NCBI GenBank assembly: GCA_021767745.1
Contig: JAASSS010000004.1
Location: 1 to 37,181 of the forward strand
Length of the DNA: 37,181 bases
Source: Pseudomonadota bacterium
GTDB taxonomy: Bacteria; Pseudomonadota; Gammaproteobacteria; UBA5335
Reading direction: 5' to 3'
In this document: positions 27,041 through 35,948 of the stretch, piece after piece
How positions within the stretch are numbered: position 1 is the first letter of the stretch
Layout of the letters: each line of letters begins with the position of its first letter
Translations under genes and position numbers: made by a program
The notes under the pieces: model-generated
The model's database searches: none
Told to the model about the DNA's origin: nothing
What the model saw: only the letters and a program-made list of their open reading frames with translations

Positions 27041-27056
27041 AGCAAGCGGCATGCCA
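27041..27056 (-). promoter_or_regulatory. Sigma54 promoter of the flgB operon
   Basis: On the minus strand the sequence reads TGGCATGCCGCTTGCT (27056 to 27041): -24 TGGCAT, five-base spacer, -12 TTGCT. This matches the RpoN consensus TGGCAC-N5-TTGCW at all but one position. The predicted start point gives a leader of roughly 27 bases to flgB. It fits activation by FleQ or a related enhancer-binding protein. Confidence 0.75.
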
Positions 27057-30744: not shown

Positions 30745-31155
30745 ATGAAGTACGAGAGCGCAGTCGGCGCCTACCGCCGCATGGGCGCGGAGCGGGCCAG
30801 CACGGCCGAGCCCGCCATGCGGGTGACGATGCTCATGCAGGGCGCGCTCGATCGTCTGGCCGCGGCCGGTGGCGCGCTGGCGGCCGGGCGGCGTGCCGAG
30901 AAGGCCCGCCACATCGGCCGCGCCGTGGCCATCATCGATGCCCTGGGCGGCAGTCTGGACCGCGAGGCGGGCGGCGAGATCGCCGAGAACCTTGCCGCCC
31001 TGTACGGCTACATGCTGCGGCGTCTGCTGCAGGCCAACCTGCACGACGATGCCGCCGCGCTCGCCGAGGTCGGCACCCTGCTGCGGCAGGTGAAGTCCGG
31101 CTGGGATGCTGCCACCGGCGCGCCATCGGCCGGGGCGGCGGCCTCGGCCGGCTGA
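30745..31155 (+). CDS. fliS: Flagellin export chaperone FliS
   Basis: A 136-residue helical chaperone. [20 protein letters not shown] at the N-terminus, [40 protein letters not shown] and the [20 protein letters not shown] block are the FliS signatures. It binds the flagellin C-terminus in the cytoplasm and prevents early polymerisation. The ribosome site is weak (GGGG about nine bases upstream). It is divergent from fliC, whereas in Pseudomonas fliS follows fliD on the same strand. The stop overlaps the start of the next gene by one base. Confidence 0.93.
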
Positions 31156-33194: not shown

Positions 33195-33210
33195 TGGCAC
33201 GTGATCTGCT
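33195..33210 (+). promoter_or_regulatory. Sigma54 promoter of the 33268-fliEFGH operon
   Basis: TGGCACGTGATCTGCT: perfect -24 TGGCAC followed by G as in the extended consensus, five-base spacer, -12 CTGCT (consensus TTGCT). The leader to the ATG at 33268 would be about 47 bases. In Pseudomonas the corresponding fleSR promoter is FleQ and RpoN dependent. Confidence 0.8.
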
Positions 33211-33267
33211 AACGATCGTTTGAGACCGCACCGCGGCCCACGATCAACCGACGCAGACAGGTGCCAC

Positions 33268-33939
33268 ATGAACTCGCCCAGTCCCCGGCCTGCCCCATCC
33301 CCGGCACCGCTGCCGAGCGCCCGTCAGGCCCAGACGCACTTCCTGCTGCTGTTCGATCCCGATTCCGCCCGCGCCGACGACTGGCGCCGACGGCTCGCCC
33401 CCCTGGACTGCCCCGTCCTGGTGGCGAACGACTGGCCGGCGATGCTGGCCTTGGCCCAGCAGGTGCCGGTGGGGCTGGTGGTCTGCGCGGCGGCGCCGGG
33501 ACTCGCCAGTGCGACCCGCCTGCTGCAGCGTCTGCGTCAGCGGCTGACGGTTGTGCCCCCGGTGGTATTGGTCGGCCCGGCACTCGCTGATCGGGATATC
33601 GCGGCCGGGCGGGAAGCCGGCGCGGCCGAGGTGCTGATCGCCACCGCCACCGATCGGCGGCTGGTCGAGCGCCTGGCGCAACACTGGCTAGAGCGTGCGC
33701 CGGTGACCGCAGACCGGCTGCCGCAGGCGCCGGCACCCCCGGTCGTCGCCCCGATGCCCGCGCAGGCACAGGCGCTGGCACAGGACCTGCACGTTCCCGA
33801 GCAGGGGCAGATCCTGGCGGCGCTGGAACGCTTCGCCGGCCACCGTCTGCGGGCGGCGGCGCATCTGGGCATGAGCCCCGGCGCCTTCGCCGACCGGCTC
33901 AGCGCCCTGCGCGCGGCCGGCGTCGTGCTGCCGGCCTGA
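33268..33939 (+). CDS. Pseudo-receiver plus FIS-type HTH protein in the fleSR position
   Basis: A 223-residue protein I do not recognise as a named gene. Residues about 23-143 have receiver-like alternation: LLLFDPDSARADDW with the acidic pair D30/D32, then GLVVCAAAPG where the phosphoacceptor Asp should be, PPVVLVGPA with Gly at the Thr/Ser site, and EVLIAT without the conserved Lys. A Pro/Ala linker (~144-170) leads to a FIS-like helix-turn-helix (~176-213: ILAALERFAGHRLRAAAHLG). There is no AAA+ domain and no GAFTGA. It lies between fleQ and fliE, where Pseudomonas has fleS-fleR. CAGGTG precedes ATG 33268; the frame could start at 33220, but that is at the predicted transcription start. 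It is likely a DNA-binding flagellar regulator not controlled by phosphorylation; function unproven. Confidence 0.65.
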   Translation: MNSPSPRPAPSPAPLPSARQAQTHFLLLFDPDSARADDWRRRLAPLDCPVLVANDWPAMLALAQQVPVGLVVCAAAPGLASATRLLQRLRQRLTVVPPVVLVGPALADRDIAAGREAGAAEVLIATATDRRLVERLAQHWLERAPVTADRLPQAPAPPVVAPMPAQAQALAQDLHVPEQGQILAALERFAGHRLRAAAHLGMSPGAFADRLSALRAAGVVLPA

Positions 33940-33950
33940 AGAGCGAACAG

Positions 33951-34301
33951 ATGAACACGAGTGGGATCGGCAACGCGTCGCTGCTGCGCCAGCTGGCGGC
34001 CCAGGCACGTCAGGTTGCGACCGAACCGGTCGCCCCGGGCGCCGCGCCGGGCAGCGCGCCCACGCCTGCCCAGGTGGACAAGCCGGATTTCGCGGCCCTG
34101 CTGGGTGAGGCGCTCGGCGGCGTCAACGATGCCCAGCAAAGCGCCGCGGCGCTCGGCGAGCGCTTTCTGCGCGGCGGCGATGTCGACCTCGCCGAGGTGA
34201 TGGTGAGCATGCAGCGCGCGGGGCTTTCCTTCCAGGCGATGACCGAGGTACGCAATCACCTGGTGAGTGCGTATCAGGAAATCATGCGGATGCCGGTGTA
34301 A
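33951..34301 (+). CDS. fliE: Flagellar hook-basal body protein FliE
   Basis: A 116-residue protein joining the MS ring to the rod. The conserved C-terminal half reads DFAALLGEALGGVNDAQQSA, then FLRGGDVDLAEVMVSMQRAG and LSFQAMTEVRNHLVSAYQEI, the FliE signature. The N-terminal ~40 residues are Ala/Pro-rich. GAAGAG precedes the ATG. It starts 11 bases after the regulator gene, so both are on one transcript; fliF follows after 9 bases. Confidence 0.95.
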   Translation: MNTSGIGNASLLRQLAAQARQVATEPVAPGAAPGSAPTPAQVDKPDFAALLGEALGGVNDAQQSAAALGERFLRGGDVDLAEVMVSMQRAGLSFQAMTEVRNHLVSAYQEIMRMPV

Positions 34302-34310
34302 GGGGCGCAC

Positions 34311-35948
34311 ATGGCCGGAACGATCCAGAGCGAGGGCACGCCCGCCGGGTTCGGCGCGCTGCAGCAGTTCATCGGCACCGTGAATCTGCGCCAGCTGATC
34401 CTGTTGATCGGCCTGGCCGCCAGTGTCGCGGCCGGCATCACGGCGGTGCTGTGGCTGCGCGGGCCGGACTACCAGAGCCTGTTCGCCAGCCTGCCCGACC
34501 AGGAGGCCGCGGCGGTGGCCGAGGCGCTGGAGGCCGCGGGCGTCGACTACCGCCTCGATGGGCGCGGTGGCGGCGTGCTGGTGGCGGCGGACGAGCTCTA
34601 CGCCGCGCGGCTCAAGCTCGCTGCCGAGGGCCTGCCGCGCAGCAGCGCCAGTGGCTTCGACCTGCTGGACGAGCAGCCGAGCTTCGGCGTCTCGCAGTTC
34701 ATGGAGAGCGCCCGCTACCAGCGCGCCATGGAGCTGGAACTGGCCCGCACCATCGTCGGCCTCGCGCCGGTGGCCAATGCGCGGGTCCACCTCGCGCTGC
34801 CCAAGCCCAGCGTCTTCGTGCGCGATGCCCGAACTGCCAGCGCCTCGGTCACGGTGCAGCTGCACGCGGGCCGGCAGCTGCTGGCGGAGCAGATCGGCGC
34901 CATCACCTACCTGGTCGCCTCCAGCGTGCCGGACCTGGAACCGGGGCAGGTGACGGTGGTGGACCAGCAGGGCGTGCTGCTGAGCGGACGGCAGGAGGAT
35001 CCGCTCGCCAGCGCCAGCGATCGCCAATTCGAGCAGGCCCGTCGTCTGGAGTCTGCCTACGTGCGCCGGATCCACGATCTGCTGGCGCCGGTGGTCGGCG
35101 CCGAGGCGGTGCGGGCCCAGGTCGATGCGGATCTGGACTTCACTGCCGTGGAGGAGACCCGCGAATCGTTCGATCCGGAGCGCTCCGTCCTGCGCAGCGA
35201 GCAGGTGGACCAATCCGAGCGGCGCAACCTGCAGCCCGGCGAGGGCGGTGCACCCGGCGCCCTGAGCAATCAGCCGCCGGAGGCAGGCACGCTGGCGCCG
35301 GCCGGCGAGCAGACGCCGGTCGAGCGGCGCGAGACCAATTCCCAGACCACCCGCAACTACGAGGTGGACAAGACCGTCAGCCATATCCGCCGCCCCCTGG
35401 GCGAGGTCGAGCGGCTGACCGTGGCGGTCGTGGTGGATGACTGGCGGCGTATGGACGCCGACGGCAACGCCGTGCGCGAGCCGCTGGCCGAGGCCGAACT
35501 GCAGCGCCTGCAGCAGCTGGTGGAGCAGGCGGTGGGCTTCGACGCCGCGCGGGGCGATCGCATCAGCGTCATCAACCAGTCGTTCCAGTCACCCGAACTG
35601 CTCGAACCGCTGCCCGAACCCTCGCTGCTCAGCCGCCCGTGGCTGCGCGAGCTGCTGCGCCAGGGCCTGCTGGCACTGGTGCTGCTGGTGCTCGGCTTCG
35701 CCGTCGTCCGACCGACGCTGCGCTCGTTGACCCGCGGCCTGCCGGGCTTGCCCACCGGCGACACCCCGGCCCTGCCGGCGCCTGCACGCCGGCTCGAGGG
35801 CCCGGTCGCGACGCCGGCCAGGGAGATGACCTTCGAGGGCAGTGGACTCAGCTTCGATCAGAAACTGCAGGCCGTGCGCAGCCTGGCCAGCCAGGATCCA
35901 GGCCGGGTCGCGCAGGTGGTGAAGAGCTGGGTGCGCGAGGATGGCTAA
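34311..35948 (+). CDS. fliF: Flagellar MS-ring protein FliF
   Basis: A 545-residue inner-membrane ring protein. There are two transmembrane helices, at about 29-48 (LILLIGLAASVAAGITAVLW) and 446-464 (RQGLLALVLLVLGFAVV). Between them are the ring-building motifs PDYQSLFASLPDQEAAAVAE, SFGVSQFMESARYQRAMEGE-like block (here ...AMELELARTI), ARVHLALPKPSVFVRD and NYEVDKTVSHIRRPLG. The C-terminal cytoplasmic tail (FDQKLQAVRSLASQDPGRVA) binds FliG. AAGGGG precedes the ATG. The stop overlaps the fliG start by eight bases (ATGGCTAA), similar in design to flgG/flgH. Confidence 0.96.
   Translation: MAGTIQSEGTPAGFGALQQFIGTVNLRQLILLIGLAASVAAGITAVLWLRGPDYQSLFASLPDQEAAAVAEALEAAGVDYRLDGRGGGVLVAADELYAARLKLAAEGLPRSSASGFDLLDEQPSFGVSQFMESARYQRAMELELARTIVGLAPVANARVHLALPKPSVFVRDARTASASVTVQLHAGRQLLAEQIGAITYLVASSVPDLEPGQVTVVDQQGVLLSGRQEDPLASASDRQFEQARRLESAYVRRIHDLLAPVVGAEAVRAQVDADLDFTAVEETRESFDPERSVLRSEQVDQSERRNLQPGEGGAPGALSNQPPEAGTLAPAGEQTPVERRETNSQTTRNYEVDKTVSHIRRPLGEVERLTVAVVVDDWRRMDADGNAVREPLAEAELQRLQQLVEQAVGFDAARGDRISVINQSFQSPELLEPLPEPSLLSRPWLRELLRQGLLALVLLVLGFAVVRPTLRSLTRGLPGLPTGDTPALPAPARRLEGPVATPAREMTFEGSGLSFDQKLQAVRSLASQDPGRVAQVVKSWVREDG

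Follow-up and report, generated by a model that had tools for sequence, protein, structure and literature searches.

A probable FleR derivative without an AAA+ domain occupies the FleSR slot between fleQ and fliE in a draft gammaproteobacterial genome

Introduction

A two-component system associated with the flagellum is widespread among polar flagellates, where it couples basal-body assembly to the rod and hook genes; Xanthomonas campestris is a known exception (PMC7064773). In Pseudomonas aeruginosa, the flgB operon requires FleSR and sigma54 (PMC7064773). In the genomes surveyed here, this pair is usually encoded between fleQ and fliE. Outside flagellar systems, the RegA/PrrA proteins combine a receiver with a Fis-type helix-turn-helix (HTH) and have no AAA+ domain, and RegA, PrrA and ActR are phosphorylated and bind DNA. 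A solved effector domain of PrrA is listed in PMC11407668.

We analyzed a stretch of 37,181 nucleotides (the window), which is contig C76 of the draft genome G000 (1.93 Mb, 184 contigs, 82% complete). An earlier note had described a single gene of 223 residues between fleQ and fliE in this window, and its coordinates, start and length were confirmed. We refer to this gene and its product as X.

Gene order and promoters around X

The + strand of the window carries fliS, a gene of 116 aa, fleQ, X, fliE, fliF and fliG in this order (Table 1), and the - strand carries fliC, fliD and the rod/hook genes flgB to flgK. The 116-aa gene may be a fliT analogue, judging by position alone. The fleQ product showed 67% identity to FleQ of G001, a genome of the same family. 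X and fliE, co-directional and spaced by 11 bp, form one operon, in which fliF follows. The diverged receiver of X and the regular spacing of promoter and operon make an assembly artefact unlikely.

Table 1 Coordinates of X, its domains, neighboring genes and predicted promoters in the window
Feature	Position	Strand	Evidence or remark
sigma54-like site TGGCATGCCGCTTGCT	27041-27056	-	37 bp upstream of flgB start (27003); predicted rod/hook operon promoter
fliS	30745-31155	+	precedes the 116-aa gene
short gene, 116 aa	31155-31505	+	interval between fliS and fleQ; no Pfam match
fleQ, intact sigma54 activator, 472 aa	31712-33130	+	Pfam FleQ PF06490 46.8 bits, Sigma54_activat 247 bits, HTH_8 50.6 bits
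predicted sigma54 -24/-12 promoter TGGCACGTGATCTGCT	33195-33210	+	one mismatch to TGGCACGNNNNTTGCW; 64 bp past fleQ stop
X, 223 aa, probable FleR derivative without AAA+	33268-33939	+	stop codon included
pseudo-receiver of X, aa 23-143	33334-33696	+	receiver-only alignment, profile scores, AlphaFold2, Foldseek
linker of X, aa 144-164	33697-33759	+	location of AAA+ in FleR; low model confidence, no AAA signal
Fis-type four-helix domain of X, FleR type, aa 165-223	33760-33936	+	HTH profiles, AlphaFold2 helices
altered recognition helix GAFADR of X, aa 205-210	33880-33897	+	RTLRYK in FleR
fliE	33951-34301	+	PF02049 96.7 bits; 11 bp from X stop to fliE start
fliF, next operon gene	34311-35948	+	match to G001 FliF

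Sigma54 sites with one mismatch occurred twice in the window against 0.5 expected (first-order model, whole window), and none is expected by chance in the 137-bp gap between fleQ and X. In relatives, where a site was accepted with at most two mismatches and with both GG and GC present, 106 of 144 gaps following fleQ contained one, many at a similar distance, as did 16 of 104 gaps between fleR and fliE. The site ahead of X is predicted to be the inherited fleSR promoter, and the promoter survey places X at the position where fleS begins in relatives. Downstream of the site on the - strand, FlgH, FlgI, FlgE and FlgK were identified by Pfam. No FleQ box (GTCAATAAATTGAC, up to 3 mismatches) was found in the window.

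The G000 genome encodes rpoN. A search for fleSR elsewhere in the genome, as proposed in the earlier note, found neither FleS nor FleR in this 82% complete assembly, from which a distant fleSR could be missing. Since sigma54 is encoded and no FleR was found, FleQ would be the natural activator of both promoters. The fleQ product would thus be the probable driver of the X-fliE operon, and flagellar gene control in G000 seems to rest on this master regulator alone. Other sigma54 activators of G000 were considered as a hidden FleR, compared with FleR/FleS and rejected by their sequences and neighbors: C140 is PilSR-like, C132 belongs to an NtrBC pair adjoining glnA, C51 is GlrR/QseF-like and C111 is NifA-like. 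The gene for the NifA-like activator (L048:43-1650, - strand) lies beside a homocitrate-synthase-like gene, suggesting nitrogen fixation.

Architecture and predicted fold of X

The likely start of X is the ATG at 33268, because the alternative TTG upstream, at 33220, does not lie beyond the transcription start expected for sigma54. X consists of a receiver-like half and a Fis-type HTH, with no AAA+ domain. The Pfam HTH_8/Fis profile matched aa 178-211 with 26.0 bits, exceeding its cut-off of 22, while Response_reg, matching aa 30-136, stayed below its own (12.7 bits, E 0.15). Neither Pfam FleQ (PF06490, E up to 10) nor Sigma54_activat was detected in X. For finer comparison, we used our own profiles from the survey genomes, built from 133 FleR rows (receiver, AAA+ and HTH), 25 rows of FleR without FleS and 129 FleQ rows. 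The FleR AAA profile gave -3.7 bits with X, bearing out the description of X as an HTH protein without AAA+. The receiver half scored 18.8-20.8 bits with the FleQ receiver profile and 14.3 bits with the FleR receiver profile, and the maxima among 300 shuffled sequences were 6.8 and 3.6 bits, respectively. Its resemblance to receivers, as judged by these scores, is therefore beyond chance.

An AlphaFold2 run on the single sequence of X predicted a (beta-alpha)5 domain joined by a disordered linker to four helices (165-173, 178-188, 193-199 and 204-216), with a mean pLDDT of 62.6. When FleR and FleQ receivers were supplied as an alignment for the receiver half, its pLDDT reached 85.5. This alignment could bias the model, and the single-sequence run therefore matters. 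Foldseek retrieved receivers with both models, and the matches of the alignment-based one included the solved receiver of P. aeruginosa FleR (7w9h). The structure prediction thus agrees with the fold that the earlier note had read from the sequence.

Origin of X

With the two FleR HTH profiles, the HTH of X reached 33.9 and 35.8 bits, compared with 2.1 bits for the FleQ HTH profile. The C-terminus of X matched FleR of G001 at 48% over 54 aa, in an alignment running through the last residues of both proteins. The receiver half is more difficult to place. The FleQ receiver profile also gives genuine FleR receivers a median score of 42, and this half of X is too diverged for a firm assignment from score. 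Its mean identity is about 21% to FleR receivers and 15% to FleQ receivers, the closest of the latter being that of the window's own FleQ (23%). In a receiver-only alignment, the alpha4-beta5 part of X ('GAAEVLI') retains the shape of true receivers, a feature absent from FleQ. In a search of 369 genomes, eight of the best 50 matches to the receiver half were FleRs, each encoded directly upstream of fliE; the FleR share of all receivers is about 1% by our estimate (from receiver counts per genome and about 0.4 FleR per genome). This over-representation favors a FleR origin, although the matches are mutually related, so that a binomial value exaggerates its significance. Taking together the FleR-type HTH, the slot, the promoter and the receiver matches, a remnant of FleR, one of the origins that the earlier note had offered, is the best one, and we consider it highly probable that X is FleR-derived.

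The receiver residues of X given below were assigned from the receiver-only alignment. Alignments of whole X with full FleRs, or with mixed receiver and HTH fragments, were not used, as MAFFT misplaced X in them. No orthologue of X was found in 185 genomes queried with it or among the 193 fliE loci described below, the genus of the window being represented by G000 alone. A literature search, to which subscription papers were mostly out of reach, found no AAA-less FleR or pseudo-receiver derivative of a bEBP.

Altered functional residues

Compared with FleR receivers, X has A74, preceded by C73, at the position of the phosphoacceptor Asp, and the conserved Thr and Lys are replaced by G103 and A125, as had been noticed before. 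The acidic pair is partly retained (D30/D32, with P31 between). Judged by these residues, X cannot be switched by phosphorylation. With AAA+ absent, X likewise cannot remodel the sigma54 polymerase, which upholds the view that it cannot activate sigma54 itself.

The recognition helix is also altered. Across 133 FleR rows it reads RTLRYK almost invariably (R in 133, T in 132, L in 133, R in 133, Y in 128 and K in 133), and the motif was present in 24 of 24 FleRs checked from the set without FleS. In X, all six positions are changed to GAFADR, including Gly at 205 and the acidic D209, and R193, R195 and R210 are retained. E178 and I182, corresponding to the most conserved Fis residues in FleR helices 1-2, are also kept. 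In the related activator LuxO, replacement of S423, I425, Y426, R427, K428 or L429 by alanine abolished binding in gel shifts, though the proteins were stable (PMC11407668). By our alignment, with the LuxO numbering anchored on alanines 414/415, these residues equal positions 205 and 207-211 of X. Given the six changes and the LuxO data, the suggestion that X kept the DNA binding of FleR is unsupported. Fis domains differ in these residues. NifA, for example, binds DNA with the recognition helix TPRQIAYRI (PDB 9qq6), which has some positions in common with SPGAFADRL of X, and a new DNA specificity is therefore possible.

Selection or decay

The stop-free frame of X was set aside as proof of function, because 37-43% of simulated neutrally drifted copies had no stop at the present GC content. 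Codon-position composition was used instead. Second-position GC was 0.556 over the whole of X. The receiver (0.51) and the HTH (0.53) had lower values than the N-terminal tail (0.77) and the linker (0.67). For neutral drift to 32% identity, a simulation that assumes a mutational equilibrium of 0.86 GC, and compared here with a single X sequence, gave 0.69-0.79. Selection thus appears to have maintained both folds of X as the tail and linker drifted, and the composition in this one genome argues against neutral decay. Together with the predicted models, X looks still folded and selected.

The FleSR slot in related genomes

A neighborhood survey, also proposed in the earlier note, covered 193 fliE loci in addition to that of the window (the members of a set of 80 contig loci that extended to fliE, 120 whole-genome loci and three of the same family). 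Because the contig and whole-genome sets overlap in some genomes, the counts are of loci and not of independent species. The order fleQ-fleS-fleR-fliE was found in 123 loci, and 37 had fleQ and fleR without fleS; fleQ with neither gene was seen in 10, and 23 had no fleQ in the stretch. G001 has the complete order. No second gene with both ends of FleR but no AAA+ was found in the slot at these 193 loci.

Most of the FleRs without FleS had lost the receiver and retained AAA+ and HTH. Those of Steroidobacteraceae and kin (L119, L121, L122, L128 and others) keep RTLRYK, and this receiver-less type is probably independent of phosphorylation. In eight loci, fleQ lies 70-154 bp from fliE with nothing between. 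In genus g3, of the same family as G000, fleSR is missing, and fliS, a FliT-like gene and an atypical PilZ gene precede fliE. The PilZ (tPilZ) gene lies directly upstream of fliE at L043:8852-9397 (G002), and the same order was observed in L044 (G004). A FliF tree joined the window to G001 (97/91) with g3 outside (90/51), the window having a long branch. With this topology, FleSR losses in the window lineage and in g3 may be separate, the placement being tentative. In another family, the slot at L267:4223-5008 (G309:C250) holds a 261-aa protein for which a FleS profile built from 100 rows gave 41.6 bits, and no FleR is adjacent. In this FleS-like protein, LAHQIRTPL has become LAERIETPD, with loss of the phosphoacceptor His, and the ATP-binding part is mostly missing. 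In two genomes of the same family (L238 and L255), fleQ directly precedes fliE. Therefore, dead halves of the FleSR pair seem to persist for some time upon loss of the tier.

Possible role of X

We favor, at a probability of about 0.55, the explanation that X is an eroded, non-catalytic fleR descendant left by loss of FleSR and acting, if at all, through protein contacts. In this history, fleS would have been lost and the AAA+ ATPase excised from fleR, joining the receiver to the Fis domain, while the fleSR sigma54 promoter would have been retained and would now drive X-fliE-fliF. X would thereby be reduced to two folded domains of types that form dimers. Produced with the early flagellar genes, it may pair with FleQ or another receiver or Fis protein and damp or tune its partner, an action comparable to that of Id proteins on bHLH factors. 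Control of the fliE tier as well as the rod/hook tier would fall to FleQ, the one flagellar sigma54 activator that was found. Contact action is favored because the switch, the motor and FleR-type DNA reading are gone, and domains of dimer-forming types and E178/I182 are left. Should X indeed come from FleR, a contact-acting modulator is the preferred though tentative role, a vestige is doubtful yet nearly as likely, and a DNA-binding regulator with new specificity is less likely. A more specific and rather improbable version is that the stripped FleR, expressed from a FleQ/sigma54 promoter and keeping dimer interfaces, pairs with and limits FleQ, so that stoichiometric feedback would replace the catalytic checkpoint of FleSR.

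X might instead be a functionless leftover of FleSR loss, retained only because it shares an operon with fliE, whose translation may still benefit from that of X. The loss of all three active parts of FleR, the eight empty slots and the eroded FleS stump of another family are in line with this somewhat doubtful view, but in both domains second-position GC lies well away from what neutral drift predicts, the tail and linker having drifted, and AlphaFold2 recovers both folds from X alone. The intact HTH scaffold, the retained arginines and the positions in common with NifA would also suit a Fis domain that reads another site, making X a phosphorylation-independent repressor or co-activator. The replacement of every RTLRYK position, including by Gly and Asp, and the effect of alanine at the LuxO positions (PMC11407668) that are equivalent by our alignment render this unlikely.

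Other explanations concern the origin. The higher score with the FleQ receiver profile and the closeness of the window's own FleQ could indicate a chimera, in which FleR contributed the HTH alone and the receiver half came from FleQ, whose own receiver is a pseudo-receiver. However, true FleR receivers score well with that profile too, X has no PF06490 match and possesses the 'GAAEVLI' shape, and both mean identity and the best matches lean to FleR, so that we hold a chimera to be very improbable. Least probable is the arrival in the slot of an unrelated RegA/PrrA-like response regulator; its architecture would equal that of X, but the HTH is of FleR type, slot and promoter are those of fleSR, and sequence matches in PDB at E up to 10 included the FleR receiver and not PrrA.

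Overall, X is a real and unusual, very probably FleR-derived variant of the known FleR type, found in one genome, and it may, as the earlier note proposed, be an undescribed flagellar regulator. The survey indicates that the FleSR tier erodes in several ways, by loss of the receiver, of the ATPase or of everything, or by reduction of the kinase, and X is the only ATPase-less form found. As a sigma54-like promoter precedes the rod/hook genes despite no FleR being found, control of two tiers by FleQ alone is testable in this lineage, which also offers a test case for the reuse of dead two-component proteins.

Comparison with known systems

X resembles FleR/FlrC, a group I bEBP, in its FleR-type Fis HTH with a receiver in front, its slot before fliE and its sigma54 promoter after fleQ, whereas it lacks the AAA+ (GAFTGA) domain, the phosphorylation site and RTLRYK, and no cognate FleS was found in the 82% complete assembly. 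With FleQ/FlrA, whose gene adjoins it, X shares a receiver-like domain without a phosphoacceptor and a Fis HTH, but it differs in the absence of AAA+, in the undetected Pfam FleQ domain and in its low score with the FleQ HTH profile. The likeness to RegA/PrrA/ActR is one of architecture only, as X lacks the Asp and lies in the FleSR slot. The receiver-less FleRs (L119, L122) are an eroded form of the same pair, in the order fleQ-fleR-fliE without FleS; they kept AAA+ and RTLRYK and lost the receiver, a loss complementary to that in X. Finally, the eroded FleS of L267 is a non-catalytic FleSR leftover in the same slot, but it represents the kinase half of the pair, whereas X represents the regulator half.
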